From assembly GCF_008017835.1 (NCBI RefSeq), contig NZ_VRLT01000026.1:62001-126000 (forward strand): a DNA stretch of 64,000 bases, given 5' to 3'. The translations under genes were made by a program, and so were the position numbers. Each line of letters begins with the position of its first letter. Position 1 is the first letter of the stretch. Positions 29,488 to 57,400 of this stretch are shown here, in pieces. Under the pieces are notes generated by a model. That model did no database searches. It saw only the letters and a program-made list of their open reading frames with translations, and was not told the DNA's origin. This stretch comes from Mesonia sp. HuA40 (GTDB lineage: Bacteria; Bacteroidota; Bacteroidia; Flavobacteriales; Flavobacteriaceae).

Positions 29488-29500
29488 AAATGTCCAGAAA

Positions 29501-29896: not shown

Positions 29897-29900
29897 AATA

Positions 29901-30659: not shown

Positions 30660-30677
30660 TTTATTGATTTAATTTAT

Positions 30678-31187
30678 TTATCTAAAGCTTCTAATAATAA
30701 TACCACGATCTCCAACACTTTGCTCTATTTTTAAGTTATTCGTTAATCGATTAGCTCCGTGTTGTATGTATTGGTTTCCTCCATTTTGAATCAATTCAAA
30801 ATTGATTGTACCTAGAGGATCATTTATATAACGTAATGCTAAATTACTGTCTCCAGACTGACTTATTCTTTCATTAATTTGTTTTGCTTTTAAGCTCACT
30901 CCAATAATATTCTCATTACCATTCTGACTTAGTCGTACTTCAGATTGATTTGAATTGACTTGTGTAATAACAATATTTCGTTCTCCTATTTGATCAATAT
31001 AAACCTGGTTTCCTAAGGGTGGTACTTGTTCGGACAGCACACTAGTTTCGGCAAATCGACTCAAAAAATTAAGATTGGCTGCATTTTCCTCAACTATTTC
31101 TGGATTGTCTTCACTTTGTTCTTGAGCGACAGAATTCCAGTTAAATAGAATAGTGCAGAAAACTATTAAAATTAATTTTTTTCTCAT
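30678..31187 (-). CDS. csgB: minor curlin / nucleator CsgB-like protein
   Basis: Probable fibre nucleator. The start at 31187 gives a signal peptide ending SVAQEQ; an upstream in-frame ATG adds 26 residues that are not signal-like. The 169-residue product has about five degenerate curlin repeats (YIDQIGERN, RLSQNGNEN, RISQSGDSN, ELIQNGGNQ, KIEQSVGDR) and a basic C-terminus (IIIRSFR), as CsgB has for surface attachment. It lies second in the operon, 155 bp after csgA and separated from it by a hairpin (31209-31254), and 18 bp before csgE. CsgB against a second CsgA paralogue rests on order, repeat degeneracy and the basic tail. Confidence 0.82.
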   Translation of the reverse strand: MRKKLILIVFCTILFNWNSVAQEQSEDNPEIVEENAANLNFLSRFAETSVLSEQVPPLGNQVYIDQIGERNIVITQVNSNQSEVRLSQNGNENIIGVSLKAKQINERISQSGDSNLALRYINDPLGTINFELIQNGGNQYIQHGANRLTNNLKIEQSVGDRGIIIRSFR

Positions 31188-31208
31188 TTTATTAGTATTT
31201 AAAAATAC

Positions 31209-31254
31209 AAGGGTAAACGAACCAAAGAGCTTTTCTCTATATTCATTTACCCTT
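31209..31254 (-). promoter_or_regulatory. hairpin between csgA and csgB
   Basis: Perfect 9-bp arms AAGGGTAAA and TTTACCCTT enclose a 28-nt segment that contains a second small hairpin (AGAG/CTCT). No long T tract follows on the minus strand, so this looks more like an RNA-processing, stabilising or attenuating element than a full terminator. It would lower downstream expression relative to the major subunit csgA. Confidence 0.5.
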
Positions 31255-31342
31255 AGTATCCTCATCTCGGATATCTAGTTGATAATTAACACTAAATACT
31301 TGAAATGAGATGGTTAGTTAGTAGGATATAATTTGCTAAATA

Positions 31343-32266
31343 TTAGTTAGACTGGTTCACCCAAGCTGAGTTTGCACCTGCTTGATTTACGTGACTTGTG
31401 TTTCCTAACATTCCTGACTGGGTAACTTTTGCATAGTTATCTGCAGTAATAAGACCTTGTTCTTTTTGCGTGATGTAAGACTTGTTCATTTCACCATCTT
31501 GGTCTACATTAGCGTAGTTAGTGTTTAGTCCTACTCCTCCAGACTGAGTTACTTCTGAGCGGTTATAATCACCCAATTGATCTAAAATAGATCTGTTACC
31601 GTCGTCATGTTGCTTAACTCTCTCTACGTTTGAGTATCCTGGAGCTAAATATGCACCTGAAGTCTCTTGTCTTGAAGTAGCACGGTTATCATTACCCATT
31701 TGTTCGATATCTGAGTAATTACCTTTAGACTGATTTGGTCTGGCTATTTGTCTTACATTAGCATAGTTATCATCTCCTTGTTGATTAACTTTAGACCTGT
31801 TATTATCATAAGTTTGGAAGATTGTAGAACGGTTACCATCTCCATTCTGAATGGCATTTGCCCAGTTATCTTCGGCATTCATCCCGTTACCTTGCTGTAT
31901 GTTTGAACGGTTATCTTGCCCGTCTTGATCTACATAAGCTTTGTTTCTATCTCCTTGTTGTTCAACAGTTGATCTTTGTTGAGTAACCAAACCTCCGTTT
32001 TGATCTACTTTTGCGTAGTTTGAGTCACCACTTGCAGGATTACCTCCCACATTTCCTTTTTGATCTACTTTAGAGTAGTTGTGTCCTACTTGATCGATGT
32101 CGGCTCTGTTAGCTGTAAACTCTTGGTCTACATCACTATTGTTATTACCACTTTGATCTACCCAAGCCTTATTAGTAACACCGGTTTGGTCTACATTACT
32201 TGTGTTTTGAGCGAAAGCAACAGCACCAAAAAGTAGAGCGGCTGCACAGAAAATTGATTTTTTCAT
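31343..32266 (-). CDS. csgA: major curlin subunit CsgA-like amyloid protein
   Basis: Secreted amyloid subunit that builds the fibre. The signal peptide is MKKSIFCAAALLFGAVAFAQ. Residues about 21-307 are some 22 strand-turn units of the form N-[RYKS]-[SA]-x-[VI]-x-Q-x-G-x-x-N (for example NKAWVDQSGNNN, RSKVNQQGDDN, YANVDQDGEMN). E. coli CsgA is 151 residues with ten strands, so this fibre unit is about twice as long. First gene of the operon, preceded by a leader of about 125 nt from a -7 box at 32397-32404. Several units are spaced by longer turns (for instance VGGNPASGDSN). Confidence 0.93.
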   Translation of the reverse strand: MKKSIFCAAALLFGAVAFAQNTSNVDQTGVTNKAWVDQSGNNNSDVDQEFTANRADIDQVGHNYSKVDQKGNVGGNPASGDSNYAKVDQNGGLVTQQRSTVEQQGDRNKAYVDQDGQDNRSNIQQGNGMNAEDNWANAIQNGDGNRSTIFQTYDNNRSKVNQQGDDNYANVRQIARPNQSKGNYSDIEQMGNDNRATSRQETSGAYLAPGYSNVERVKQHDDGNRSILDQLGDYNRSEVTQSGGVGLNTNYANVDQDGEMNKSYITQKEQGLITADNYAKVTQSGMLGNTSHVNQAGANSAWVNQSN

Positions 32267-38444: not shown

Positions 38445-38458
38445 GTGACCTGAGTTAC
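38445..38458. promoter_or_regulatory. palindromic operator 1 (GTGAC-N4-GTTAC)
   Basis: One of three near-identical palindromes in the island. It is centred about 29.5 bp before a weak -7-like TATTTTTA (38481-38488) of the sulfide:quinone reductase remnant, almost the same spacing as at cydA. This corresponds to about -41 from the transcription start, the class II activator position of Crp/Fnr proteins. Confidence 0.55.
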
Positions 38459-38513
38459 AGCATACAAGTTTTTAAGAAAGTATTTTTATAGGATTAAAAA
38501 AACGCTTAAAAAA

Positions 38514-39557
38514 ATGGGAGCACATTATCAGGTATTAATAATAGGAGGAGGAACTGCAGGTATTATGACTGCGGCTCAACTTCTAGAGCAAAAAAAGTAA
38601 ACAAGTATTGGGATTATAGAACCAGCAGACACACATTACTATCAGCCCGCGTGGACGCTAGTAGGCGCTGGAGCTTATGATTACAAAAAGACTGGAAAAC
38701 CTATGAAAGAAGTAATGCCCAAGGGTGCTACTTGGATTAGGGATTATACAACAGCTTTTAACCCAGAAAATAATGCTGTAGCTACTAAAAGTTCTGGTAA
38801 TCTCACTTACGATTACTTTAGAAAACAAGGAATTCTCAAGAAGACCAATGTAATCTTTGCAACGCCAGGAAGCGTCATTTTTGGTGTAAAACCTATACGA
38901 GACACTTTAATGAAGGTTATAGGAAGATATGGTATAAACTTTAAACCTTTTTATGCACCTATCAAAATTGATGCAGAACACAAGGTAGCTTACTTCAAGC
39001 ACGTTGCACCCGATGAAAACAAGTGTGTACTAAATGAAGATAATGGTATAGCCGAAGAATTTACAGAAGGTAATATCATTAAAATCCCATTTGATATGCT
39101 TCATCTCGCACCACCACAAGCAGCACCAAAATTTGTTCGTGAGTCTTCACTTGTAAACGAAACTGGATGGTTAGATGTAGACACCAATTCCCTACAACAT
39201 AATAGGTACACAAATATTTTTGGATTAGGTGATGTGGCAGGACTACCTACTGCAAAAACAGGAGCTGCCGTACGCAAACAAGTGCCTGTAGTGGTAGACC
39301 ACTTAAGTCTACTCATTGCTCAAAATAGAATAGGTACAAGATCTTACAATGGCTATTCTAGTTGTACACTTGTAACTGGATAAGGAAAAATGACCCTAGC
39401 AGAATTTGATTATGATGGTAATTTCAAACCAGACCCTAAATTAAAACAGATGCCAATTTTTGATAGTGCTAAAGAACACTGGAGATTATGGATGCTTAAG
39501 AAATTCGGATTACCTTACTTGTATTGGAACAAAATGTTGAAAGGAAAAAAGGTGTAA
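38514..39557 (+). pseudogene. sqr: broken sulfide:quinone oxidoreductase
   Basis: All pieces lie in one frame from ATG 38514: FAD-binding QVLIIGGGTAGIMTAAQLLE, stop TAA at 38598-38600, IEPADTHYYQPAWTLVGAGA, later IFATPGSVIFGVKPI and NIFGLGDVAGLPTAKTGAAV, a second stop TAA at 39381-39383 where Tyr is expected, then the C-terminal WRLWMLKKFGLPYLYWNKML. A section of roughly 75-85 residues is deleted between TYDY and FRKQG, joining two similar GATTACTT words and removing a catalytic-Cys region. Two nonsense codons plus the deletion mean it is inactive. Membrane-associated sulfide oxidation would have been its role. Confidence 0.9.
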
Positions 39558-39704
39558 AACAAATATTTCTAGTAGAGTAAAAAAGCGTATTTCAATATTG
39601 AAAATCGCTTTCTATATAAATAATAACACCATTATATTTAAAATAAAAAACGTCACGTGACTACATATTAGTAAGCAAGCAATTCATCCTGTTTACTATC
39701 TGTT

Positions 39705-40127
39705 GTGCCGTCTTCTTATCTGATTTCTTCAAGTTTGATGCTCTTCAAAATATTGAAGTCAACATTTGTCGTCATTGGAGTTTTAATGAGAATACTCGGC
39801 GTATTGCAATTAGGTAGAAATCTATCACCATCCCCAACACTTGTCGCGGGCGATAGTCTGATACAAACAGGACCTTACAAGTGCATTAAACATCCTATTT
39901 ACACGAGTATCCTCCTAATTTTTTTGGGTTATGGTTTATAGACCGCATCTGGTTATAAGCCTGCTATAACCCTAATTCCTAATCCTATATTTGTATTTTA
40001 GTCTAGATATGAAGAAGAAATGCTTTCTGTTGTTTTTCAGAATACCAAGTATATAATAGAAGTACAAGTCGATTTTTACCTAGAACGTTTTCAGCCAAAT
40101 AAGTTGCTAATTGTTAAAAATAGTTAA
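39705..40127 (+). pseudogene. broken isoprenylcysteine carboxyl methyltransferase-like gene
   Basis: In one frame: a membrane segment, LVAGDSLIQTGPYKCIKHPI (ICMT/NnrU-like signature TGPYxxxRHPxY), YTSILLIFLGYGL, stop at 39939-39941, a poorly conserved stretch, a second stop at 39999-40001, then SRYEEEMLS matching the conserved ARYEExxL near the family C-terminus. The 5' part is also unclear, with only a GTG start. Clearly decayed. Confidence 0.7.
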
Positions 40128-40139
40128 TCAAACACCTAT

Positions 40140-40153
40140 GTAACATAGGTTAC
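40140..40153. promoter_or_regulatory. palindromic operator 2 (GTAAC-N4-GTTAC) of the peroxiredoxin gene
   Basis: Perfect inverted repeat GTAAC-ATAG-GTTAC, 67 bp before the peroxiredoxin start and centred about 40 bp before the -7 box TATATTTG (40187-40194). That is about 11 bp, one helical turn, further upstream than at cydA, as for a class I activator site. Confidence 0.6.
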
Positions 40154-40186
40154 TGTAGCATGTTTTAATATAGCTTAAATTTATAG

Positions 40187-40194
40187 TATATTTG
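40187..40194 (+). promoter_or_regulatory. -7 box of the peroxiredoxin promoter
   Basis: TATATTTG matches TAnnTTTG, 26 bp before ATG 40220. No -33 TTTG is seen. Confidence 0.55.
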
Positions 40195-40219
40195 AAAAAT
40201 AATCATTAAAAACTATACT

Positions 40220-40885
40220 ATGGATAATGAAAATTTATTGAAAGAACAGGTTACTTCTATGCCAAGGATAGGCGATACAGCACCAGATTTTGAAGCTTTG
40301 ACAACAAAAGGAAAAATTAAAATGTCTGAATTTGCTAAGGACAAATGGACAGTGATGTTTTCGCACCCAGCAGATTTTACACCAGTTTGCACAACTGAAT
40401 TGAGTGGATTTGCAGAAAGAAAAGCAGAGTTTGATGCTTTAAATACAGAGCTTCTAGGGTTAAGCATAGACAGTATTCACGCTCATCTAGGATGGGTTCA
40501 AAACGTAAGAGAAAACACGGGAGTTTACTTCGACTTCCCTATTATCGCAGACATCGATATGAAAGTATCAAAACTTTACGGAATGCTTCAACCTAATGAA
40601 AGCGAGACAGCTGCTGTAAGAGCCGTATTCTTTATCGACCCATCTAAAAAGATTCGTTTAATTATGTACTACCCACTTAATGTAGGTCGTAATATGGATG
40701 AGATTTTAAGAGTTTTAGATGCGCTCCAGGTATCAGATGAAAAAGGAGTTGCTATGCCGATGGATTGGAAACGTGGTGAGAAAGTAATTTGCCCGCCACC
40801 AAAGTCCTTAGATGCCTTAAACGATAGATTAGCAGACGACTCAGTAGAAAAAATTACTTGGTATTTAGCCAAAAAAGATATCTAG
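40220..40885 (+). CDS. peroxiredoxin (Prx6/1-Cys-like group)
   Basis: Thiol peroxidase reducing hydrogen peroxide and organic peroxides. The 221-residue length and HPADFTPVCTTEL with peroxidatic Cys57 match the Prx6-like group, as do the family C-terminal extension and VICPPP (Cys about 192). The gene is intact, in contrast to its neighbours on both sides, and has its own operator, -7 box and terminator. Confidence 0.93.
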   Translation: MDNENLLKEQVTSMPRIGDTAPDFEALTTKGKIKMSEFAKDKWTVMFSHPADFTPVCTTELSGFAERKAEFDALNTELLGLSIDSIHAHLGWVQNVRENTGVYFDFPIIADIDMKVSKLYGMLQPNESETAAVRAVFFIDPSKKIRLIMYYPLNVGRNMDEILRVLDALQVSDEKGVAMPMDWKRGEKVICPPPKSLDALNDRLADDSVEKITWYLAKKDI

Positions 40886-40897
40886 AAAAGAAAATGA

Positions 40898-40932
40898 GGG
40901 TTTTCCTTATTCTTTCGAAAGCCCTTTTTTAT
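40898..40932 (+). terminator. terminator of the peroxiredoxin gene
   Basis: Stem GGGTTTTC / GAAAGCCC (one G-T pair) followed by TTTTTTATTTTT. Confidence 0.75.
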
Positions 40933-40966
40933 TTTTAATAGTCTATTAAAAATTAAAAACCAGATT

Positions 40967-41440
40967 ATGAAAAACATAAATAACATAGGTTTAGACCATA
41001 AAACATCTTAAACCACCGCGTCACAACTGAATGACCTATTGTCTAATTACCAAATGTTCTATATGAATCTTAGAGGATTCCACTGGAATATAAAGGGAAA
41101 AAAATTCTTTGAATTACACCTTAAGTTTGAAGAGTTATATAACGACGCTCTAGTAAAGGTAGATGAAATTGCAGAGCGGGTACTAACGTTGAGTGCAAGG
41201 CCATTACATTCATTTAAAAAGTATCTGGATACCTCTGATATTAAGTCTTCTGAAAATGTAACCGATGGAGAAGAAGCTATCCATAACATTCTTGAATCAT
41301 TAAAAATCTTATTACGTAAAGAAAGAGAAATTTTATCCATTGCTTCTGAAGCCAATGATGAAGGAACAGTTGCTTTAATGAGTGATTACATCGTAGAGCA
41401 AGAGAAACTTGTTTGGATGCTATCTGCTTATCTAGACTAA
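40967..41440 (+). pseudogene. dps: Dps-family ferritin-like gene with early stop codon
   Basis: From ATG 40967 the frame reads MKNINNIGLDHKTS, stop TAA (41009-41011), then continues uninterrupted for 142 codons through a full Dps four-helix protein: NLRGFHWNIKGKKFFELHL with the ferroxidase His, YNDALVKVDEIAERVLTL with the Asp and Glu ligands, and ALMSDYIVEQEKLVWMLSAY. Upstream helix 1 is short, so a product starting at TTG 41039 (133 residues) could still fold. Counted as a pseudogene, but residual expression is possible. Confidence 0.8.
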
Positions 41441-41450
41441 ATTTCAAATT

Positions 41451-42761
41451 ATTACAAAATCTAAAACATATAAAATTACAACCACCACAGGGCTTGCCCT
41501 TGTGGTGGCTTATATGGTTGGGACTGGGGCATTCACAAGTTTAGGTTTTCAATTAAAAGTTTTAAACAATCCTACAGTAGTTTTACTACTATGGGTCTTA
41601 GGTGGTGTAATCGCGCTTTCTGGAGTTTTTAGTTATGCTGAAATCGGTACGCATATCACACGCTCTGGTGGCGAGTAGGCGTTTTTGAGTAAACTATTTC
41701 ATCCGCTCATTGGGTATCTGTCTGGATGGATATCGATAACTGTTGGATTTGCTGCACCCATAGCGCTTTCTGCAATGGCATTTATAGCCTATTTTCCTGT
41801 AGATAATCTAAATCCTAAATGGGCAAGTATAATACTTGTAGCCATCATTACTTTTATTCACACCAAAAGTTTAAACTTAAACTCAAAATTTCAGAACATA
41901 AGTACCTTTTTAAAGATCGCTTTGATTCTTGTTTTCATTGGGATAGGACTTTATTTAGAGCCAAGTTTTAATAATACCCATCTCTTTTCAAATTCTGACT
42001 ACAGTCAGCTCATTTCACCAGCATTTGCTATTGCATTAATCTATGTGAGTTACTCATATTCTGGATGGAATGCCGCTGCATATATAACAGAAGAATTCAA
42101 GAACCCTAAAAAGTCCTTACCCATAGCGCTCATAGTCGGTACACTTATCGTAACACTACTTTACACTTTGCTACAATACATCTTTTTAAAACACGTGCCC
42201 ATAACAGCGCTTAAAGGGCAACTCGATGTAGGTACCATTGCAATGCGTAAAATGCTAGGTAACGAGATAGCCGCGGTTTTTGGATTAGCTATTTCACTGT
42301 TGTTGGTATCAGGAATTAGCGCAATGGTCTGGGTAGGTTCTCGAGTAACTTCGAGTATTGCAAATGATCATACCTTTTGGAACTATTTTAGTGTTCCCAA
42401 AAGCAACATTCCGAAGCGAGCACTATGGCTTCAATTTGTCATCAGCAGCTTGTTAATTATCACTGGAACTTTTGAACAGATACTCATTTACTATGGTGTA
42501 TTACTTACCATATCATCTATGACTACGGTACTAGGCGTTTTTAAATTAAGAAGACAAGTTAAAAATCAAGAAACTAAAGGATATAAAAGCCCATTATTTC
42601 CAATTTTTCAATTAGTTTATATTGCGCTATCCCTGTGGATGATTGTTTATGCATTTGTCAATAGTCCCTTTGAAATATTAATCGGTCTGGGCAATATCGT
42701 CTTAGGACTCGCAACCTATTTATTAAGTATTAAAATGAACCATAACTTAAAATCAAAATAA
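41451..42761 (+). pseudogene. amino-acid permease (APC family) with internal stop
   Basis: The frame begins without an ATG (ATT-ATT-ACA...) and reads ITTTTGLALVVAYMVGTGAF, the APC helix 1 unwound motif. At 41676-41678 a TAG replaces the Tyr expected after ITRSGGE. Beyond it the frame is open for 358 codons (YLSGWISITVGFAAPIALSA, SYSGWNAAAYITEEFKNPKK, and so on) to the stop at 42759-42761. Twelve-helix transporter of the amino acid/polyamine family; broken by loss of the start and one nonsense codon. Confidence 0.82.
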
Positions 42762-42762
42762 A

Positions 42763-43485
42763 ATGAAATCAACAAAACTAGTAATTACAGCGATGCTACT
42801 TACAGCAATTGTAGGATGTAAAGAAGCTGATAAGAAAAGTGAAAAACAAGAAATCACACAGGAAATGCATCACGGTGGCGAACATCTCAAAAAAGATGAT
42901 ACTAAAACCGCAAACGAGTATATGCACAAGTCATCAGTAGATGAATTGATTGAACGATTTGATTCGCCAGAGCGAGATGCCTATCAAAAACCTGCTATAG
43001 TACTGGATTACCTAGGTGATTTAGAAGGCAAAAAAATAATGGACATCGGTGCAGGTTCGGGCTATTTTTCAGTCAAGCTAGCTGAAAAAGGCGCCCATGT
43101 CATTGCTGCAGATGTAAGTGAAGACTTTCAAGCAGCACTTAAAAAACGTATTGAAGCAAATAATATAGAAGACATTGAGCTGCGTAAAATACCTTATGAT
43201 AGCCCTAATTTATCTGCAGGTGAAGTAGATATGGTTTTAATCGTAAACACCTACCATCATATAGAAAACCGCAGCGCCTATTTTGCAAAGGTCAAAGAAG
43301 GAATTCAATCCGATGGTGAACTGGTCATTATTGATTTCCTCAAAAAGGAACTTCCTGTAGGTCCTCCATTAAATCATAAAGTAGCTCTAGAAACTGTAAA
43401 GGCTGAATTGAAAGAAGCTGGCTACACAAATATAGACGTCAATACCAACTTGCTACCGTATCAATTTATAATTAAAGCCAAATAA
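42763..43485 (+). CDS. SAM-dependent methyltransferase with lipoprotein signal
   Basis: A 240-residue protein with an N-terminal lipoprotein signal (MKSTKLVITAMLLTAIVGC), a charged His-rich linker (EMHHGGEHLKKDD), then a class I methyltransferase domain: KIMDIGAGSGYFSVKLAEKG (motif I), VIAADVSEDFQ, and VDMVLIVNTYHHIENRSA (motif IV). SAM is normally cytoplasmic, so an exported methyltransferase is unexpected. The fold is well supported; location and substrate are not. It starts 1 bp after the permease stop and lies 3 bp before the next methyltransferase. Confidence 0.82.
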   Translation: MKSTKLVITAMLLTAIVGCKEADKKSEKQEITQEMHHGGEHLKKDDTKTANEYMHKSSVDELIERFDSPERDAYQKPAIVLDYLGDLEGKKIMDIGAGSGYFSVKLAEKGAHVIAADVSEDFQAALKKRIEANNIEDIELRKIPYDSPNLSAGEVDMVLIVNTYHHIENRSAYFAKVKEGIQSDGELVIIDFLKKELPVGPPLNHKVALETVKAELKEAGYTNIDVNTNLLPYQFIIKAK

Positions 43486-43488
43486 GCT

Positions 43489-44082
43489 ATGACCGATTTT
43501 TGGAATCAACGTTATGGCGAGCAGGCATTTGCCTATGGCAAACAACCAAACGTCTTTTTTAAACAACAGCTTGATATATTAGATTCTGGCAGCATACTCT
43601 TCCCTGCCGAAGGTGAAGGCCGTAATGCGGTATATGCAGCATCACAAGGTTGGAATGTAATGGCTTTTGACACTAGTGAAAAAGGAAAAGAAAAAGCGCT
43701 ACAACTCGCTCAGGAACAAAAGGTTGCAATTACGTATACAATTACCGATGTAATGCAATTTCATAGTGATACCGCTTTTGACGTTATTGCTTTGTGCTAT
43801 GCTCATTTTCCTGCAAGTATCCGTAAGCAAGCGCACAAGCATCTATTGCAATTTTTAAAACCGAATGGTATCGTTGTTTTTGAAGCTTTCGCGAAAGCGC
43901 AATTAGGAAATGCTTCTGGTGGTCCAAAAAATATAGAAATGCTATTTTCTATCGATGAAGTCAAAGAAGAGTTTACTAATCTAGATTTTAGTTATCTAGA
44001 AGAAAAAACCGTAACTCTTAAAGAAGGGAACTATCATCAGGGAACGGCAGAAGTCATACGTTTCGTAGGAAAGAAACTTTAA
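43489..44082 (+). CDS. TehB-like class I methyltransferase
   Basis: A 197-residue cytoplasmic methyltransferase opening FWNQRYGEQAFAYGKQPNVF, with motif I SILFPAEGEGRNAVYAASQG and AFDTSEKG. This resembles the TehB/thiol-methyltransferase-like group that includes tellurite-resistance enzymes; the actual substrate is unknown. A copy of the palindrome GCTTTCGCGAAAGC lies inside the coding sequence (43885-43898), encoding part of FEAFAKAQ. It ends at the hairpin at 44087-44110. Confidence 0.82.
   Translation: MTDFWNQRYGEQAFAYGKQPNVFFKQQLDILDSGSILFPAEGEGRNAVYAASQGWNVMAFDTSEKGKEKALQLAQEQKVAITYTITDVMQFHSDTAFDVIALCYAHFPASIRKQAHKHLLQFLKPNGIVVFEAFAKAQLGNASGGPKNIEMLFSIDEVKEEFTNLDFSYLEEKTVTLKEGNYHQGTAEVIRFVGKKL
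43885..43898. repeat. palindrome GCTTTCGCGAAAGC, coding copy
   Basis: Perfect 14-bp palindrome inside the TehB-like gene. The same core occurs at 46785-46804. Confidence 0.6.
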
Positions 44083-44086
44083 GAGA

Positions 44087-44110
44087 AAGCCCTTCGATAT
44101 TGAAGGGCTT
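44087..44110. terminator. bidirectional terminator
   Basis: Stem AAGCCCTTC / GAAGGGCTT with a 6-nt loop between the convergent methyltransferase and TonB-receptor genes. Confidence 0.8.
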
Positions 44111-44117
44111 CTACTTT

Positions 44118-46229
44118 TTAGAAATCATACTTCACAAAAATCGAGAAGTTTGTTCCAGGGTCATTTATAGGAGCTCTTGTAAAATCAGCCTGATTCACAA
44201 AAGAGAAATTTAAATGATTATTATACGTCTCATTAAACACATTGAGCACCGCTAGACCTATATTCACATCCTTTACAGGCTTGAAGCCGAAACGTAAATC
44301 CAACACCTCATAACCAGGTGTTTCTTGTTCTCTAAGGCTTGTAGCAATCTCATCTTGCTTAGACGTTATAGTATAGTCTAAACTCGCCCAGAATTTTTCT
44401 TTTTCAAATCCTAATCCAAAACGGGTTGTAAATGGTGGTGTTAGCGGTAGTGCTTCGTCTAGGTCTTGATTTCTTGTATATACGTAAGACAATGCGCTAG
44501 AAAAATTAAAGTGGCTTGCAAAATCTATCGTAGCCTCTGCTTCAAAACCTGTTTTGTTTGCTTTATCTAAATTGATAAATCGTTTTACTTCTTGTGGCTG
44601 TGCATTGGGCATAAACTTTCTATCGAGTGTAGGGTCTACAACGGCAACAATGTAATTCTCATAACGTGCATAATACCCAGATATAGCATAATGCAAAGCG
44701 TTAATCCCTTTGTCAAAACGTTTACGACCTTTAATACCTATTTCAAACTGATTATTTACCTCAGCGTCCAGATTAGGATTTCCTACATATTCAAAAGGGT
44801 CTTGCCCCACAGAAAAATGATTAATGTATCGCTCTATCATATTTGCAGAACGTACACCACGGCCATAAGCAACTTCTAGCGTTTTATTAGCTGATAATTT
44901 ATGTTTCATTGATATTGTAGCAGAAACGTTATGCTCTTCACGCTGTTCTAAATTGGCATAGAGTTGTTGAAAATCTGCTTCAGGGTCTTTAATATCAGAG
45001 ACTACTACATCGTAACGCATCCCAGCCGTTAACATCGTTTTGTCTGAAACGGCATACTTATTTTCAGCAAAGAGTCCAAAATCATTTACATAGGAATCTT
45101 GCCAAATCTTATCTTGAAATACCATAGGTTGCGGTAATAAATCGCCCATCATATTACGTTTTACAACGCGAGTTCTACCGCCATCTCTTGCAATAAGCAA
45201 TGCATCTATCCCACCATAAAGAATCCATTTTTCTGTTGGTTTCATTTTCAGCTCTAGCTTACCGCCAGCAGTAGTGGCATCTATGGTAGATACAGCTTCT
45301 GTCATCATAAAAGAAGGTCTTCTGCTGTTAGCCATAATGTGGTCTACAAAAGAATAATAAGCTTTTGCGTTTACTTCCTTAACGAAACCTTTTAAATCAG
45401 ATAATTTGTAATCCAGTGATAAAATAGAGCTGTTGTCCTCTTCTGTATCCATAGGCAGTCCAGCGTGTAAAACATCTCTACCGTAAGATTGTCGCCAGTG
45501 TGCTTGTATTCTTTGGGAATCACTTAAATTATATCCTACTCGCAAGCCATAGTCTAAACTTCTAAATGATGACGGAATTTCAGTTTCATCACCGTCTTCA
45601 TAATTGCCAAAATCACGATAGCCAGCATTTGCAGTGATATCGTATTTTTCAGCTACTTGATGCAATTTGATGGATGATACCAACGCATTACCATTAGTTT
45701 CATAACCAGTACTCACATTGCCGTGTAAGCCATTATCTAGTCGCATCGGTGGCTGAGTAACTAGATTTACTATACCGCCAAAGGTAGCGCCATATCGTAC
45801 GGTATAAGGTCCTTTTATTACTTCTATGCGTTCAATATCTTCAGGCACTACGTGTGTAGTCACTGGGTCCATTCGATTAGGGCAAGCGTGCATCGCCTTT
45901 GTACCGCCATCAAATTGAATGTTAAGCTGTTCATACTGACTTGCTCTAAACGATGGGTCAATCGCATAATTACCACGTTTAATAAGCGAGAAACCATTAA
46001 GGTCGGTAAAAAGATCAGCAACGTTTTTGGGTTGTACCACTTTCTTTTCTAGTTCTGTTTTTACTGTGGTAAGTACTGGGTCTGTATTTCGTTTACCTGT
46101 GATGAGTACTGTATTAAGCGTCACCGTTTTTATACTATCGTTTTGAATTATGTCTTTTTTTATCGTTTCCTGCGCACACAAAAACACAGGAAAGAATGCT
46201 ACTACTAGCACTAATTTTCTAAAATTCAT
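44118..46229 (-). CDS. TonB-dependent receptor, OprC/NosA copper-receptor-like
   Basis: Outer-membrane active transporter. The start at 46229 gives a signal peptide (MNFRKLVLVVAFFPVFLCAQ); an upstream ATG adds 17 residues. In 703 residues: plug domain about 35-170 with VIKGPYTVRYGATFGGIVNL, barrel to the end, final FSIFVKYDF with C-terminal Phe. The plug carries MHACPNRMDP, so Cys116 and Met120 form a CxxxM, and the barrel has HIM at 297-299. As I recall, P. aeruginosa OprC binds copper through C143, M147, H323 and M325, a matching CxxxM...HxM with almost the same spacing. Copper uptake is therefore likely. Its partner is the upstream Cys-rich gene. Confidence 0.85.
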   Translation of the reverse strand: MNFRKLVLVVAFFPVFLCAQETIKKDIIQNDSIKTVTLNTVLITGKRNTDPVLTTVKTELEKKVVQPKNVADLFTDLNGFSLIKRGNYAIDPSFRASQYEQLNIQFDGGTKAMHACPNRMDPVTTHVVPEDIERIEVIKGPYTVRYGATFGGIVNLVTQPPMRLDNGLHGNVSTGYETNGNALVSSIKLHQVAEKYDITANAGYRDFGNYEDGDETEIPSSFRSLDYGLRVGYNLSDSQRIQAHWRQSYGRDVLHAGLPMDTEEDNSSILSLDYKLSDLKGFVKEVNAKAYYSFVDHIMANSRRPSFMMTEAVSTIDATTAGGKLELKMKPTEKWILYGGIDALLIARDGGRTRVVKRNMMGDLLPQPMVFQDKIWQDSYVNDFGLFAENKYAVSDKTMLTAGMRYDVVVSDIKDPEADFQQLYANLEQREEHNVSATISMKHKLSANKTLEVAYGRGVRSANMIERYINHFSVGQDPFEYVGNPNLDAEVNNQFEIGIKGRKRFDKGINALHYAISGYYARYENYIVAVVDPTLDRKFMPNAQPQEVKRFINLDKANKTGFEAEATIDFASHFNFSSALSYVYTRNQDLDEALPLTPPFTTRFGLGFEKEKFWASLDYTITSKQDEIATSLREQETPGYEVLDLRFGFKPVKDVNIGLAVLNVFNETYNNHLNFSFVNQADFTRAPINDPGTNFSIFVKYDF

Positions 46230-46300
46230 TTTAATTTTTTTTAAATTACTTACGGGAAGATTGTAGGATAAGCCTTGCATTATCCTATCTGCATTATTTG

Positions 46301-46678
46301 TTATGTAAGTAAAACAGTCCTGGGTGGATGGAAGATGCGAGTGTGATTCTCCTCGCTTTTTAAAAGGATATAATTACTAGTATTAGTTGTTATGTATATG
46401 GGTGCAGCAAGTTGCTCTGTATTGGAATATACCTCGCAATACACCAGTTGTTCCCATTCTATTTGTAACGCAGGTTTTTCTGGGTTTGAAGTTGAGCTCT
46501 TTGAAACCTTAGTCAAGAAACACTTTCCATTACACTGCATCGCAGGTTTGCCTTTATTTTCACAAAGTTGCTCTATAAAACTTTCCATATCAAGTGCATA
46601 CCAGCTATAGGTAATCGATACCTTAAGACTGTTACTCAACAGTAAAAAAGATAAAATAATAGCACTTATTAGTTTCAT
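46301..46678 (-). CDS. small secreted Cys-containing protein, partner of copper receptor
   Basis: A 125-residue protein with a short N-terminal hydrophobic segment (about 3-20). It has a cluster of potential metal ligands: CENKGKPAMQCNGKC at about residues 39-53 (C-x9-C-x3-C with an internal Met) and a further Cys at about 81. Such small proteins often precede TonB receptors in Bacteroidota; no function is assigned. It lies 71 bp upstream of the receptor start in the same direction, under a promoter overlapping the inverted repeat 46821-46851. Metal handoff is an inference. Confidence 0.7.
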   Translation of the reverse strand: MKLISAIILSFLLLSNSLKVSITYSWYALDMESFIEQLCENKGKPAMQCNGKCFLTKVSKSSTSNPEKPALQIEWEQLVYCEVYSNTEQLAAPIYITTNTSNYILLKSEENHTRIFHPPRTVLLT

Positions 46679-46784
46679 ACTGCAATAGTATTCTAAATAG
46701 AGAACGAGAGCAATGATAAAAGTCAGTTTAAAAGAAAAATATAGTAGTATACTACCGTTTTCAATGCCCAGATTTCTTGTTTTA

Positions 46785-46804
46785 TACGCTTTCGCGAAAG
46801 CGTA
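46785..46804. repeat. palindrome TACGCTTTCGCGAAAGCGTA
   Basis: Perfect 20-bp palindrome in the intergenic region between the copper-receptor operon and cydA. It shares its core with 43885-43898, and a decayed form is visible near 49611-49626 (CGCTTTCGCTAAAGTG). It could be a REP-like element or an operator. Confidence 0.65.
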
Positions 46805-46820
46805 ATTACAACCATTTAAA

Positions 46821-46851
46821 TTGGTCTAATTATATCACAAAATTAGACCAA
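46821..46851. promoter_or_regulatory. 11-bp inverted repeat operator at the copper-receptor promoter
   Basis: TTGGTCTAATT and AATTAGACCAA, perfect arms 9 bp apart. The minus-strand -7 box TAATTTTG (46838-46845) lies inside, so a bound protein would block or control the Cys-rich-protein/receptor operon. The half-site TGGTCTA resembles those of HutC/GntR-type regulators, but the arms are further apart. Confidence 0.6.
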
Positions 46852-46916
46852 TACTAGCCTTTCTAAAGCTACTAAAATTACACAAGAAAACCTTTTAAAA
46901 CGAAATCATTCACTGT

Positions 46917-46930
46917 GTAACACCGGTTAC
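46917..46930. promoter_or_regulatory. palindromic operator 3 (GTAAC-N4-GTTAC) of cydAB
   Basis: Perfect inverted repeat GTAAC-ACCG-GTTAC, centred 28.5 bp before the cydA -7 box, hence about -41 from the expected transcription start: the class II activator position. It takes the place of the missing -33 element. Confidence 0.65.
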
Positions 46931-46951: not shown

Positions 46952-46959
46952 TAATTTTG
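46952..46959 (+). promoter_or_regulatory. -7 box of the cydAB promoter
   Basis: TAATTTTG fits TAnnTTTG, 18 bp before the cydA ATG, implying a short leader. Confidence 0.6.
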
Positions 46960-46976: not shown

Positions 46977-48332
46977 ATGGATACAGAAATTCTTGCAAGG
47001 ATCCAGTTTGCTTTCACCATTGCTTTCCATTACATCTACCCGCCATTAAGCATAGGTCTTGGCCTCATAATGGTTTTTATGGAGGGAATGTATTTGAAGA
47101 CTGGAAATAAACAATACGAGGTTTTAACTAGGTTTTGGTTAAAAATTTTTGCTTTAACTTTTGGTATAGGTGTGGCGACAGGTATCATTATGGAATTCGA
47201 GTTTGGCACAAACTGGGCGGTTTATTCCAGATACGTAGGTGATATATTTGGTAGCGCACTAGCAGCAGAAGGTTTATTTGCTTTTGGATTAGAAAGTGCA
47301 TTTTTAGGGATTCTACTTTTTGGTTGGAACAGAGTATCACCTAAAGTTCATTTCATATCAACCATTGGGGTGTTTTTAGGGTCTATGTTTTCAGCGGTGT
47401 GGATTGTTGTAGCAAATAGCTGGCAACAAACACCTGCGGGATATCATATTGTAGGTGAAGATTTTAATGCAAGAGCAGAAGTTACCGATTTCTGGGCGAT
47501 GGTATTCAACCCTTCAAGTGTAGATAGAATCATTCACGTATGGCAAGGTGCTTTTTTAGCCGGTGCTTTTTTAGTATTAAGTGTGCACGCATATTACTTA
47601 ATAAAAGGGCGTTATGTAGAAATATCAAAAAAGGCTTTTAAAATAGCTTTAGGTCTAGCCACAGTAATATCACTTACGCAGCTGTTTTCTGGTCACAGGT
47701 CTGCCGAAGTTGTTGCAGAACATCAGCCTGCAAAACTAGCAGCGCTAGAAGGCCATTATGAAGCAAACGGCGCTGCAGACATGTATTTATTTGGTTGGGT
47801 AGATAACGAAACCCAAGAAGTTACAGGGCTTAAAGTGCCTGGTGGTTTGTCATTTTTATTACACCAGGATTTTGAAGAACCAGTAACGGGACTGAAGGCT
47901 TTCCCTAAAGAAGACAGACCTAGTCAAGTAAATGCTGTATTTCAATTCTATCATATTATGGTGAGTATCGGGATGTTCTTAATAGGTCTAACCTTGTACG
48001 CAAGTTACCTATGGTGGCGAGGCACTTTATTTGAAAAGAAATGGTTGTTACGCATATTTGCGTTCTCAGTTTTATTACCGCAAATAGCAAATCAAGTAGG
48101 CTGGTTTGCTGCTGAGATGGGAAGACAACCTTGGATTGTCTATGGTCATTTAAGAACTAGTGAAGGCTTCTCTCAAGAAGTTTCTTCAAATCAAATACTA
48201 TTTTCTTTGATACTATTTTTAGTGGTCTACACGATATTGTTTCTTTTATTTCTCTATTCGGTAAATAAAAAGATAAAGCAAGGTCCTTATGATGAAGCTA
48301 AGAATCCTGATGAATTTTTAAAATACGTTTAA
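46977..48332 (+). CDS. cydA: cytochrome bd oxidase subunit I
   Basis: Quinol-oxidising subunit of the bd-type terminal oxidase, carrying hemes b558, b595 and d. The 451 residues are of the short Q-loop (CIO-like) form. Visible are the N-terminal FTIAFHYIYPPLSIGL with heme-ligand His18, EGLFAFGLESAFLG, the His of IIHVWQGAFLAG, and EMGRQPWIVYG, the conserved quinol/heme region (GRQPW). It is followed 10 bp later by cydB. The oxidase has high oxygen affinity and resists sulfide, cyanide and NO, fitting the neighbouring sulfide and peroxide genes. Confidence 0.96.
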   Translation: MDTEILARIQFAFTIAFHYIYPPLSIGLGLIMVFMEGMYLKTGNKQYEVLTRFWLKIFALTFGIGVATGIIMEFEFGTNWAVYSRYVGDIFGSALAAEGLFAFGLESAFLGILLFGWNRVSPKVHFISTIGVFLGSMFSAVWIVVANSWQQTPAGYHIVGEDFNARAEVTDFWAMVFNPSSVDRIIHVWQGAFLAGAFLVLSVHAYYLIKGRYVEISKKAFKIALGLATVISLTQLFSGHRSAEVVAEHQPAKLAALEGHYEANGAADMYLFGWVDNETQEVTGLKVPGGLSFLLHQDFEEPVTGLKAFPKEDRPSQVNAVFQFYHIMVSIGMFLIGLTLYASYLWWRGTLFEKKWLLRIFAFSVLLPQIANQVGWFAAEMGRQPWIVYGHLRTSEGFSQEVSSNQILFSLILFLVVYTILFLLFLYSVNKKIKQGPYDEAKNPDEFLKYV

Positions 48333-48342: not shown

Positions 48343-49380
48343 ATGGAAACTTTTTTAGGTTTAGATTACCCAACACTTTGGTACTTAGTTGTAGGACTTT
48401 TATTTTCTGGTTATGCCATTCTAGAAGGCTTTGATTATGGTGCTGGCGCGTGGCATTTATTTTTCAGGAAAGACTTAAGTAGGCGTATCGCCATTAACGC
48501 CATTGGTCCTTTATGGGATGCCAATCAAGTATGGCTTATTATTGGTGCAGGTGCCTTGTTTGCAGGGTTTCCTGTAATGTATGCCACGATGCTATCGGCT
48601 ATGTATGTACCATTTATGTTGTTTTTAATGCTTCTTGTACTTAGGTCTGCAGCTATCAAATTCAGAAGCGCAGAAGAAATGAAGTGGTGGCGTAAAACGT
48701 GGGACATCATCTATTTTGGCTCAAATGTTTTGATTTCATTCTTGCTAGGTGTTGTTTTAGCTAATATTTTACAAGGCTTTGAACTGGGCGAACACTACAG
48801 TTATAAAGGGGGCATGTTTTTTTCGTTTCTAAATCCTTATGCCATAATGGTAGGATTGACCACAGTATCATTATTTATGACACAAGGAGCCATTTTTCTG
48901 TTGCTTAAAACAGAAGGACGTTTGCATGCCAGGTTAACCTTTTTATTAAAAAAGGGAATGATTTTCTTTATTGTCAGTTTCGCGGCGACATCGCTTTACA
49001 CATTAGTATTTCTTCCAGGTGTTACAGACAAATTTAAGGAGTATCCAATTTTCTTTATAATACCCTTACTTGCATTTTTATCTGTTGCAAATATTCCTCG
49101 TTTAGTATCAAAAAAGAAATATGCTTACGCTTTAGTATTTTCATCTCTAACAATGGCGTTTTTACTTATGTTAGTGGCTTTTCAATTATATCCAGTACTA
49201 TTACCATCTACCATAGCCTCGGAATATAGTGTGACTATTTATAACGCGGCTTCTTCGCAAAAGTCTTTGGGAATTATGTTAACCATAGTAGCCATAGGGT
49301 CACCTTTGCTTGCAGGCTATTTCTTATTTCTTTATAAAACTTTCAACGGAAAAGTGAAGTTAGATGACACCAGCTACTAG
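48343..49380 (+). CDS. cydB: cytochrome bd oxidase subunit II
   Basis: Structural partner of CydA. The 345 residues form about nine membrane segments and open with the typical LWYLVVGLLFSGYAILEGFDYGAGAW, cut here to its key part GFDYGAGAW; NAIGPLWDANQVWLI follows. It is shorter than E. coli CydB (379) and similar to CIO-type forms. The last codons overlap the terminator stem at 49363-49388. No cydDC assembly genes are in the window. Confidence 0.95.
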   Translation: METFLGLDYPTLWYLVVGLLFSGYAILEGFDYGAGAWHLFFRKDLSRRIAINAIGPLWDANQVWLIIGAGALFAGFPVMYATMLSAMYVPFMLFLMLLVLRSAAIKFRSAEEMKWWRKTWDIIYFGSNVLISFLLGVVLANILQGFELGEHYSYKGGMFFSFLNPYAIMVGLTTVSLFMTQGAIFLLLKTEGRLHARLTFLLKKGMIFFIVSFAATSLYTLVFLPGVTDKFKEYPIFFIIPLLAFLSVANIPRLVSKKKYAYALVFSSLTMAFLLMLVAFQLYPVLLPSTIASEYSVTIYNAASSQKSLGIMLTIVAIGSPLLAGYFLFLYKTFNGKVKLDDTSY

Positions 49381-51155: not shown

Positions 51156-51473
51156 TTATTTAGCTACTTCGCCTTCCCAAATAGAAAAGCCTCCTTCTAA
51201 ATTAAAGGTAGAACTAAAGCCTAGTTGATCCATAATCTGACAAGCCTGAGTACTTCTTCCGCCAGACTTGCAATACACATAAAAGTTTTTAGACTTATCT
51301 AATTCTTGAGTACTGTTCATAAATTCTTGAGGCTCTTGAATGTTTGCTAAAATTGCTCCTGGTATAAATCCTTCCTCAAACTCTTCTGGCGTTCTCACAT
51401 CTAACAAGACGGCATTTTTATCGTTGGCAAGTTGATTTCTCCAAGTTTCTTGATCTAAATTTTCCATGTCCAA
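51156..51473 (-). CDS. single-domain rhodanese-like protein
   Basis: Sulfurtransferase fold of 105 residues with LLDVRTPEEFEEGFIPGAIL at the start and the active-site loop YCKSGGRSTQA (Cys in CKSGGRS), followed by FNLEGGFSIWEG. No signal peptide, so cytoplasmic. A -7 box (TACATTTG on the minus strand, 51491-51498) and a terminator make it a single-gene unit. It is the first core gene to the right of the island. Confidence 0.92.
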   Translation of the reverse strand: MDMENLDQETWRNQLANDKNAVLLDVRTPEEFEEGFIPGAILANIQEPQEFMNSTQELDKSKNFYVYCKSGGRSTQACQIMDQLGFSSTFNLEGGFSIWEGEVAK

Positions 51474-51490
51474 TATTTTAATTAGCGTAA

Positions 51491-51498
51491 CAAATGTA
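51491..51498 (-). promoter_or_regulatory. -7 box of the rhodanese promoter
   Basis: Reads TACATTTG on the minus strand, 17 bp before the start codon. Confidence 0.5.
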
Positions 51499-51591
51499 AC
51501 TAATAAAAAAACAACTCAATTAATCCTAAAATGCAAAAATTAAATAAAGCTTTCTAGTATAAAAAAAACACCCTAATTTCGCACCACACAA

Positions 51592-53217: not shown

Positions 53218-53253
53218 GTCTAAAAACAAAATAGCTAGTTGCATAATAATTGC

Positions 53254-53261
53254 TAAATTTG
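53254..53261 (+). promoter_or_regulatory. -7 box of the kynurenine operon promoter
   Basis: TAAATTTG fits TAnnTTTG, 25 bp before the kynU start at 53286. Confidence 0.5.
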
Positions 53262-53285
53262 TTACACTTACAAACTAAAACAGCT

Positions 53286-54554
53286 ATGACCCAATATAAA
53301 AACAGTCTAGAATTTGCTAAAGAACAAGACGAAAAAGACCCATTAGCAAAATTTAGAAATGAATTTTATTTTCCACAAAACAATCAAAATCAAAATCAAA
53401 TATACCTTTGCGGCAATTCTCTAGGATTGCAACCCAAAAGAACTCAAGAATACATCAATCAAGAATTACAAGACTGGGCGAAATACGGAGTTGAGGGACA
53501 CACCTTAGCAAAAAATCCTTGGGTGCCGTATCATGAATTACTCACCAACAAAATGGCTAAAATCGTAGGTGCAAAACCTAAAGAAGTGGTGATGATGAAC
53601 ACCCTTACGGTTAACCTGCATTTGATGATGGTTAGTTTTTATAGACCTACAGATAGAAAATTTAAAATACTAATTGAAAAAGATGCTTTCCCCTCAGACC
53701 GCTATGCTGTAGAATCGCAATTGCGTTTTCACGGAATTAGTCCAGAAGAAGGACTATTGTTATGGGAACCACGTGAGGGTGAAGAATTATGTAGGTTTGA
53801 AGACTTACAAAAGATTGTGGAAGAACAAGGTAATCGAATTGCCTTGATGATGATAGGCAGTACCAATTATTATACGGGACAATCTTTTCCGCTAAAAAAA
53901 ATTGTACAATTAGGACATCAAAATGAGATAAAAGTAGGATTTGATTTAGCGCATGGCGCCGGTAATATTCAACCTAATTTACATAAAATAGGCGCAGATT
54001 TTGCCGTGTGGTGTTCGTATAAGTACCTCAACAGCGGTCCGGGTAGCGTGGGTGGTTGCTTTGTTCATGAAAGACATGAAAACGATTTAAAACTACCTAG
54101 ATTTGCAGGATGGTGGGGCCACGATAAAGAATCAAGATTTAATATGCGCCAAGATTTTGATCCAATCCCAGGAGCAGAGGGCTGGCAATTGAGCAACCCC
54201 CCAATTTTATCTCTTGCCGCTATAAATGCATCTCTAAGTTTATTTGAAGAGGCCGGCTTTGATAAGCTAATTCAAAAATCAAAAAATTTAACTGGTTATC
54301 TTGAGTTTCTAATTAAAGATTTACAAGATAATCGCATACAAATAATAACACCATCAAACCCCGATGAGCGAGGTTGCCAACTTTCCTTAAAATTGACAGG
54401 AGTTAACAAATCCCTTTTTGACAACTTAATCAAAGACGGCGTAATAACAGATTGGAGAGAACCTAATGTAATTCGAATCGCTCCAGCACCTCTTTATAAT
54501 AATTATGAAGATGTCTTTAAAATGGTTCAATCTTTAAAAAAACACTTGGGTTAA
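53286..54554 (+). CDS. kynU: kynureninase
   Basis: PLP enzyme cleaving 3-hydroxykynurenine to 3-hydroxyanthranilate and alanine. The start at 53286 (MTQYKNSLEFAKEQDEKDPL) is chosen because the -7 box at 53254-53261 lies inside the longer ORF. In 422 residues: YLCGNSLGLQPK, GHTLAKNPWVPYHE, MNTLTVNLHLMM, and the PLP-Lys motif AVWCSYKYLNSGPG. First gene of the pathway operon; kmo starts 1 bp after its stop. Confidence 0.96.
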   Translation: MTQYKNSLEFAKEQDEKDPLAKFRNEFYFPQNNQNQNQIYLCGNSLGLQPKRTQEYINQELQDWAKYGVEGHTLAKNPWVPYHELLTNKMAKIVGAKPKEVVMMNTLTVNLHLMMVSFYRPTDRKFKILIEKDAFPSDRYAVESQLRFHGISPEEGLLLWEPREGEELCRFEDLQKIVEEQGNRIALMMIGSTNYYTGQSFPLKKIVQLGHQNEIKVGFDLAHGAGNIQPNLHKIGADFAVWCSYKYLNSGPGSVGGCFVHERHENDLKLPRFAGWWGHDKESRFNMRQDFDPIPGAEGWQLSNPPILSLAAINASLSLFEEAGFDKLIQKSKNLTGYLEFLIKDLQDNRIQIITPSNPDERGCQLSLKLTGVNKSLFDNLIKDGVITDWREPNVIRIAPAPLYNNYEDVFKMVQSLKKHLG

Positions 54555-54555
54555 G

Positions 54556-55953
54556 ATGCAAGAAAAATCAACATTAATTATAGGAGCTGGCTTATGTGGT
54601 AGCTTATTAGGGTTACGTTTGGCACAAAGAGGCTATCAAGTAAAATTAATTGAAAAAAGGCCAGATCTAAGAAAAAATGAGATTTCGGCAGGCAGGTCAA
54701 TCAATCTTGCTTTATCCAATCGTGGCTTAAAGGCTATGAAACTAGTAGGAATTGAAGAAAAGGTTAAAGAATTATGTATTCCGATGCACGGCCGCATGAT
54801 TCACCAAAAGGACCGAGACGAATTTCTTTCGCCTTATAGCGGATTAACTTCAGAGTACATCAATTCCATTTCGAGAACTAGATTAAACGCATTGCTTCTG
54901 GATGAGGCTGAAAAATTTCCAAATGTAGAAATTTTATTTAACCACACCTGTCTTGATGTAAACCTGGAGGCCGCCACAGCCACGTTTAAAGATGAAACCA
55001 ACCAGGAAGAAAAGCAGTTTAAGTCAGATGTGATTTTTGGAGCAGATGGCGCAGGTTCTATAGTAAGAAAAAGTATGTGGGAAGACCGCTTATTTCTATT
55101 TAGTTTCTCGCAAAACTTTCTTACTCACGGTTACAAAGAGTTAAGCATTCCTCCTACAAAAGATGGTGGCTATAGGCTAGTAAAAAACGCTTTGCACATT
55201 TGGCCTAGAGGAGAAAATATGGTTATTGCCCTACCTAATCTAGACGGTAGTTTTACGGTTACCCTTTTTATGGCCTATGAAGGAGGAGAATACAACTTAA
55301 ACAACCTAAATACTCCAGAAAAAGTAGAGGCTTATTTTAAAGAAACATACCCCTCTGCATACCCGCATATGCCAACACTTACTCAAGATTTTTTTGAAAA
55401 TCCAACGAGCCCGCTGGGCACTGTCAAATGCTATCCTTGGAGTTGTTCAGGAAAAACTTTACTCATTGGTGATGCCGCGCACGCAATAGTTCCGTTTTAC
55501 GGACAAGGCATGAATGCTTCTTTTGAAGACGTGGTAGTGCTAGACAAAATTATAGAAGAAAATCCCACATCTAATTGGAAATCTATTTTTGATACTTATC
55601 AAAAAGAGCGCAAAGCCGATGCTGATGCTATTGCCGATTTAGCTATTGATAATTTTCATGAGATGAAATCTCATACGGCTGCAGAAATTTTTCAGAAAAA
55701 AAGAAAAATTGAAACAGCTTTAGAGCAAAAACATCCTAAAAAATATGCTTCAAAATACAGGTTGGTTACCTTTAGAGAGGATTTGGGGTATAACAAGGCA
55801 ATGAAAAAAGGAAGAGCACAGGATAAAGCCATATTGAGTTTGCTGAATAAAGGAGTAATAGATACTGAGATGAATTTAGAAGATTTGCTTCATAAAATTA
55901 ATCAAGAGACACAGGAAATCTTAAATGAAGATGCCATCCTTCGCGGGATGTAA
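54556..55953 (+). CDS. kmo: kynurenine 3-monooxygenase
   Basis: FAD/NADPH enzyme that hydroxylates kynurenine to 3-hydroxykynurenine. In 465 residues: Rossmann IIGAGLCGSLLGLRLAQRGY, AGRSINLALSNRGL (the KMO-specific loop), DVIFGADGAGSIVRKSM with the DG motif, and GDAAHAIVPFYGQGMNA as the second FAD motif. The C-terminal helices are present. It lies between kynU and the decarboxylase/hydratase gene, 11 bp before the latter. Confidence 0.96.
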   Translation: MQEKSTLIIGAGLCGSLLGLRLAQRGYQVKLIEKRPDLRKNEISAGRSINLALSNRGLKAMKLVGIEEKVKELCIPMHGRMIHQKDRDEFLSPYSGLTSEYINSISRTRLNALLLDEAEKFPNVEILFNHTCLDVNLEAATATFKDETNQEEKQFKSDVIFGADGAGSIVRKSMWEDRLFLFSFSQNFLTHGYKELSIPPTKDGGYRLVKNALHIWPRGENMVIALPNLDGSFTVTLFMAYEGGEYNLNNLNTPEKVEAYFKETYPSAYPHMPTLTQDFFENPTSPLGTVKCYPWSCSGKTLLIGDAAHAIVPFYGQGMNASFEDVVVLDKIIEENPTSNWKSIFDTYQKERKADADAIADLAIDNFHEMKSHTAAEIFQKKRKIETALEQKHPKKYASKYRLVTFREDLGYNKAMKKGRAQDKAILSLLNKGVIDTEMNLEDLLHKINQETQEILNEDAILRGM

Positions 55954-55964
55954 ACCAACAATAC

Positions 55965-56723: not shown

Positions 56724-56729
56724 AGAAAA

Positions 56730-57158: not shown

Positions 57159-57183
57159 TAATGATATAGACACCCCCACTATC

Positions 57184-57215
57184 AAACCCTAGTTTACTTC
57201 CCTAAACTAGGGTTT
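57184..57215 (+). terminator. terminator of the kynU-kmo-decarboxylase-amnD operon
   Basis: Perfect 13-bp stem AAACCCTAGTTTA / TAAACTAGGGTTT with a 6-nt loop. Confidence 0.8.
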
Positions 57216-57374
57216 GGTTCTAATATCCTATTATCGCTGATTAACTAAAATTCAACAACTTTCATTCTGATTCGTTTAAAACTATGAAGCAACATTAATC
57301 AAAAATAATACTCAAGCGCTTCAATTTAATAATTTAAGATAACGAAAAACCAAGCATCCTAAATCAAGAAATTC

Positions 57375-57382
57375 TATATTTG
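57375..57382 (+). promoter_or_regulatory. -7 box of the second kynurenine transcription unit
   Basis: TATATTTG, 18 bp before the dehydrogenase ATG at 57401. Confidence 0.55.
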
Positions 57383-57400
57383 TAGAAAACCAATTGATTG

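Follow-up and report, generated by a model that had tools for sequence, protein, structure and literature searches.

The stretch considered here, 64,000 nucleotides of the Mesonia sp. HuA40 genome (contig NZ_VRLT01000026.1, positions 62,001 to 126,000; below, the window), contains three plus-strand promoters with one shared palindromic operator, GTAAC-N4-GTTAC, and a regulator of the Crp/Fnr family encoded on another contig is proposed to act on them as part of a sulfur-oxidation regulon. All three palindromes were found by pattern search of the window where an earlier note, made from the letters of this DNA, had placed them: GTGACCTGAGTTAC, with one mismatch, before the remnant of a sulfide:quinone reductase (SQR) gene, sqr (38445..38458, plus strand); GTAACATAGGTTAC before a peroxiredoxin gene (40140..40153, plus strand); and GTAACACCGGTTAC before cydAB (46917..46930, plus strand). 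The genes behind them, likewise on the plus strand, are the broken sqr (38514..39557; in-frame stops and internal loss), the peroxiredoxin gene (40220..40885; AhpC/TSA with 1-Cys C-terminal domain), and cydA (46977..48332) and cydB (48343..49380), for cytochrome bd oxidase subunits I and II. Compared with an intact relative, sqr has two in-frame TAA codons and lacks approximately residues 103-169; its operator and -7 box are still there, and it is the sole strong SQR match in the genome. Between sqr and the peroxiredoxin gene (39690-40125), a small methyltransferase-like stretch with apparent in-frame stops was seen by eye; these stops and the broken sqr may point to decay of this segment of the island.

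A -7 box follows each operator: TATTTTTA of sqr (38481..38488, plus strand) and TAAATTTA of the peroxiredoxin gene (40176..40183, plus strand), both starting at +30 from the operator centre, and TAATTTTG of cydA (46952..46959, plus strand), starting at +29. A centre about 29 bp before the box, as the earlier note had it for both cydA and sqr, is right for cydA, whose spacing is one base shorter than that of sqr. The peroxiredoxin site had been placed one helical turn further upstream; its box has the same spacing as that of sqr, and no such shift is needed, since the box at +30 had been passed over and a second one, starting at +41, taken instead. That the window holds no other copy of the operator is valid solely for the exact or GTRAC/GTYAC forms, because eight matches were found at up to one mismatch (1.67 expected from 100 dinucleotide shuffles). 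A one-mismatch site, GTAACAAATGTAAC (51487-51500), stands directly before a minus-strand rhodanese gene at 51156-51473, whose start is too near for the +30 register to be taken.

The genome (2.64 Mb in 62 contigs) holds 12 exact GTRAC-N4-GTYAC sites, against nine for the reversed pattern, which served as control for site counts. Eleven of the 12 lie 5' of genes and the remaining one in coding sequence on contig C22; with 14.7% of the window outside open reading frames (ORFs) of at least 120 amino acids, this distribution has P ~7e-9, if that fraction holds genome-wide. As 11 of 12 are 5' of genes, the signal is the location of the sites and not their number, and raw genome counts, which the reversed pattern nearly equals or exceeds, were set aside as evidence. 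The motif, for which a genome-wide search near gene starts had been suggested and which was not to be equally common inside coding sequence, is almost wholly intergenic. The 11 upstream sites precede the three window genes, two rhodanese genes, two MBL-rhodanese genes (persulfide-dioxygenase-like), a TauE/SafE gene, a Sulf_transp (YeeE-type) gene, a TolC-like gene and a gene for an unknown protein of 120 residues (domains by Pfam). Most targets in this genome thus concern sulfur handling.

The sites recur in other genomes. The 80 named loci (1.36 Mb), which are the 80 best-ranked among 580 confirmed stretches, contain 189 sites against nine reversed controls, 177 of the 189 outside ORFs of at least 70 residues; 72 loci have a site and eight have none. 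In 41 neighbourhoods (one from this genome and 40 from relatives within the order; 620 kb), 45 sites were found against four reversed controls, and in 40 loci outside the order 21 against two. Targets in the named loci were tallied where a gene start lies at most 160 bp after a site or at most 45 bases before it. Starts with a site were counted for SQR (7/7), TolC (7/7), the first YeeE gene (15/20), peroxiredoxin (7/10), MBL-rhodanese (35/57), TauE (28/50), MBL (5/13), cydA (3/9), rhodanese of the RHOD2 type (9/35) and crp itself (7/85); for genes usually downstream in operons none were counted (cydB, 0/9; second YeeE gene, 0/20; RND, 0/8), and for unlabelled ORFs 68/922, some of which, by eye, resemble SulP permeases, DUF983, a SoxC-like enzyme and sterol desaturases. 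In an Aquimarina locus (L173), crp, dioxygenase, sqr, peroxiredoxin and cydA genes are clustered, each with its own site except crp, which overlaps the 3' end of a small site-bearing gene; the island in the window resembles what would be left of such a cluster after scattering. Of the regulon proposed in the earlier note, joining sulfide, peroxide and low-oxygen or nitric oxide (NO) responses, the handling of sulfide, persulfide and sulfite is borne out, and an NO or low-oxygen response as such is not indicated.

The promoter register is shared as well. Among 135 sites flanked by a gene on a single side (52 site-gene pairs between divergent genes excluded), 104 promoters have TAnnTTT[GA] starting exactly at +30 from the centre, and none of the remaining offsets between 20 and 59 accounts for more than one. 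The +30 box was found for 54 of 64 first sites per locus and for 16 of the 52 excluded pairs; in the genome of the window, TAnnTTT stands at +30 in 8 of 11 promoters, two near-matches are in register, and cydA has +29. Start codons lie at a median distance of 57 from the centre. TG at +8/+9, present in 52 of the 104 promoters with the box, may be a trace of a -33 element. In the relevant passages of PMC6847099, the -7 element of Flavobacterium johnsoniae is given as T-12 A-11 ... T-8 T-7 T-6 G-5 and the -33 element of its promoters as weak. Numbered as in F. johnsoniae, the box begins with T at -12, and the +30 register puts the operator centre at -41.5, which, with start sites deduced from the box, would be the position of a class II activator; a centre near -41 without a clear separate -33 element, as described before for the window, is supported. 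It is quite improbable that the protein instead represses by covering the -33 region: the operator does cover this position, at which the F. johnsoniae element is weak (PMC6847099, same passages), but a phasing fixed to one base pair (104/135 at +30) would be needed for contact with polymerase and not for blocking.

No Crp/Fnr (PF00027) gene was found on the contig of the window (C33), and the regulator was rightly placed outside the window. Four genes for cyclic-nucleotide (cNMP)-binding domains were found in the genome, and an SRVV helix was seen solely in the one on contig C62, one of the other three being fragmentary with its helix not read. This candidate encodes 210 residues (G000:C62:79212-79841, equal to L020:11210-11842; minus strand), and an operator lies about 640 bases from it. 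The Crp/Fnr-like genes on C43 (response-regulator fusion), C4 (broken) and C15 (TESLSR helix) were considered less likely. With 34.5 bits for PF00027 and 39.6 bits for PF13545, both above cut-off, the candidate has a predicted cNMP-binding fold and a Crp-type helix-turn-helix (HTH) domain, and the AlphaFold model of the L096 orthologue (predicted local distance difference test, pLDDT, 85.3; predicted template modelling score, pTM, 0.61) matches Crp/Fnr structures; as judged from domains and model, it is a member of the Crp/Fnr superfamily. Its recognition helix reads SRVVISR, in which Arg180 and Arg185 of CRP are kept and Glu181 is replaced by Val; R182 and R187 are invariant in 207/207 relatives. 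The protein is 99% identical to one from a Mesonia metagenome-assembled genome (MAG); the crp of that near-identical MAG was matched over 629 bases (L095, 9001-9629) and, as 629 is not a multiple of three, may contain a frameshift or assembly error. Profile relatives are widespread, with matches at E 0.001 or better in 212 of 295 genomes of the class (V-types, E-types, as defined below, and weaker relatives pooled).

A Crp/Fnr gene with the motif near its orthologues, as looked for in the earlier note, was found in the C62 gene and its relatives, and the proposal of one shared operator for a Crp/Fnr-type regulator is supported at the level of sequence. The basis is formed by the sites, the box register, the neighbouring genes and the covariation of helix and operator. 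The palindrome is probably the site of a Crp/Fnr-family dimer with a sulfur-oxidation regulon, the C62 protein being the best candidate, and we consider it likely, with good confidence, that a regulator of this class binds these sites and activates.

The covariation concerns one helix residue, equivalent to position 181 of CRP, and one operator base. Typed by text pattern, 207 relatives comprise 144 with V and 63 with E; one gene typed V, probably L269 (matched letters in the wing), is E in the alignment, L276 was untyped, and matches without a readable helix or of fewer than 150 residues were dropped. Searched without a preset pattern, the commonest N4 palindrome is GTAAC beside V-type genes (65/119; shuffles, 0.05) and GTGAC beside E-type genes (6/49; shuffles, 0.0). 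Unmixed sites within 400 bp of the gene are distributed as V-AA 78, V-GG 0, E-GG 8 and E-AA 2. In trees for which loci L095-L174 were thinned (every fourth V-type locus in one, every third in the other), both made by a quick method and with long-branch warnings, the residue switched two or more times on branches with good support. L260 and L265 (E, GTGAC) are nested in a V clade, L260 being 78% identical to L253 (V, GTAAC). Several sulfur genes surround L260 and L253, and L265 has a rhodanese gene nearby. Laboratory changes of Glu181 to Val in CAP, reportedly described by Ebright in 1984, are said to make A:T instead of G:C the preferred choice at base pair 7. At E-type paralogues L082, L198, L207-L210, L212 and L213, the palindrome was seen to overlap the stop codon of crp (offsets -4 or -1). 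The covariation of helix and operator is suggestive and statistically not secure; its Fisher value of 7e-10 is an overstatement, because only two independent pairs stand on supported branches.

The candidate protein has only three cysteines. Cys77 is aligned in 207/207 genes, Cys83 in 133/144 and Cys84 in 134/144 of the V-type; in the L096 model, the cysteines are in a loop and short helix (residues 72-84). L158, with a stop codon in its stretch, was omitted from the fold alignment. Cys77 falls where CRP has its cAMP cassette, the cassette residues themselves being unmatched. A thiol (persulfide) sensor is proposed because Cys77 is universal and located where CRP binds cAMP; together with a sulfide regulon, the cysteines make persulfide the simplest signal, and the chances that the regulator senses it are put at about even. 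With the same regulator and sites, the signal could be another one, the three cysteines holding an iron-sulfur cluster, or haem or another ligand being bound, so that oxygen, NO or redox state is reported. FNR and HcpR, Crp/Fnr relatives with such cofactors, are both among the structural matches of the model, and cydA and peroxiredoxin are among the targets; a cluster is a poor fit to the few V-type members that keep Cys77 and lose Cys83-Cys84 and to the nine of 144 with only one cysteine in the matched stretch, and the commonest targets are genes for sulfide oxidation and sulfur transport. Such a signal is unlikely, if still worth considering. It is suggested tentatively that in a Bacteroidota-wide Crp/Fnr family a cyclic-nucleotide cassette turned into a thiol sensor, and that the operator was repeatedly retuned via V or E at CRP position 181 with GTAAC or GTGAC, the sulfide targets being kept.

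Several observations weigh against a Crp/Fnr sulfur regulon of this kind and have to be set beside it. Raw counts are barely above those of the reversed pattern (12 and 9 here; 140 and 95 when 16 genomes of the genus are summed), and across the order many genomes hold more matches to the reversed pattern than to the operator. Counts of this kind are what chance palindromes in AT-rich intergenic DNA would give, but where the sites lie, which genes they precede, the box register and their recurrence in other genomes make a chance origin hardly credible, and it was rejected on position, register and recurrence. No site lies within about 400 bp of 47 of 119 V-type genes, as might be expected if a regulator of another family bound the palindromes and crp were a mere neighbour in the same sulfur clusters. 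This is improbable: the -41.5 register is the class II position of Crp/Fnr, the two arginines are invariant, and one helix residue covaries with one operator base even in the nested pair L260/L253. Among all 207 genes, 119 have no site or solely a mixed one within 400 bp; the helix-operator rule is broken by L207 and L208 (E with GTAAC), and with these exceptions and so few independent supported pairs no strict rule is claimed. Cys83 and Cys84 are absent in some members, and the model is least confident around them (pLDDT 67 and 63, residues 71-90).

As a target, cydA is patchy. A site within 200 bp was found in 5 of 22 cydA-bearing genomes, own genome included, and in two of five close cydA genes (at least 70% identity, own included), i.e. 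in one of four relatives; at L237, a second cydA fragment in one genome, the first piece alone was examined. G212 and G233 have a crp match yet no site at a close cydA, and G217 has a close cydA without a site and no crp match. Absence of the motif upstream of cydA orthologues, named in the earlier note as a point that would count against it, is partly the case, and cydA was rejected as a core target.

For the sulfur regulon favoured here, the following mechanism is envisaged. A Crp/Fnr dimer centred on -41.5 would occupy the position of the weak -33 element and would recruit RNA polymerase to a promoter with the Bacteroidota -7 box alone (class II activation). The regulon would serve to oxidise sulfur from sulfide and to export it: SQR would yield persulfide; MBL-rhodanese dioxygenase and rhodaneses would convert persulfide to sulfite or thiosulfate; TauE and YeeE would move sulfur products; peroxiredoxin and, in some species, bd oxidase would guard redox balance and respiration. 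The likeliest trigger would be cysteine persulfidation or a polysulfide link at Cys77, with Cys83-Cys84 in most members.

Elsewhere in the window, a curli-type cluster by look (28093-32266; repeated curlin-like units and a CsgG-like gene) and what looks like a tryptophan/kynurenine degradation cluster (53250-60822; kynureninase, monooxygenase, hydratase, RidA, dehydrogenase and ACMSD-like genes) were seen by eye.

The analysis gives a candidate regulator, an operator with base-pair-exact promoter geometry and a list of targets over many genera; close relatives offer a natural setting in which to test the classical specificity change of CAP, and each part is directly testable in genetically tractable flavobacteria. 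No description of a flavobacterial sulfide-defence switch, of this regulon or of a Crp-type sulfide sensor was found among the open-licence PMC papers listed. Persulfide sensors such as CstR, SqrR/BigR/YgaV, FisR and the MarR-type belong to other protein families, several of them being repressors; they are like the candidate in the kind of regulon, which comprises SQR, dioxygenase, rhodanese and TauE. According to a review (PMC9774590), CstR and SqrR sense via cysteine thiols, and no Crp/Fnr sensor is named in its relevant passages. HcpR of Porphyromonas and Desulfovibrio is like the candidate a Crp/Fnr regulator in Bacteroidota and a structural match (9day), but its sequence match is weak (E 0.0027). 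HcpR is a haem protein of nitrosative stress. From FNR the candidate differs in its score, 19.7 bits against an NCBIfam Fnr cut-off of 228, and in having three cysteines only. With Escherichia coli CRP it shares the fold and HTH domain, the equivalents of R180/R185 and class II geometry; it differs in scoring 40.5 bits against an NCBIfam equivalog cut-off of 266, in Val where CRP has Glu181, and in the unmatched cAMP-cassette residues, with Cys77 in their region. NtcA binds GTAN8TAC, a 14-bp operator that has its centre near -41.5 and is accompanied by a -10-type box, for class II activation (PMC3898017, passages on its promoters). It is the best NCBIfam match of the candidate and resembles it in the shape and position of the operator (PMC3898017, same passages) and in R-V at the same helix positions in the alignment; the candidate is not NtcA, since it scores 50.9 bits against the TIGR03697 equivalog cut-off of 244.95, and it differs in having sulfur and not nitrogen targets, cysteines in the cNMP fold and a Bacteroidota promoter.
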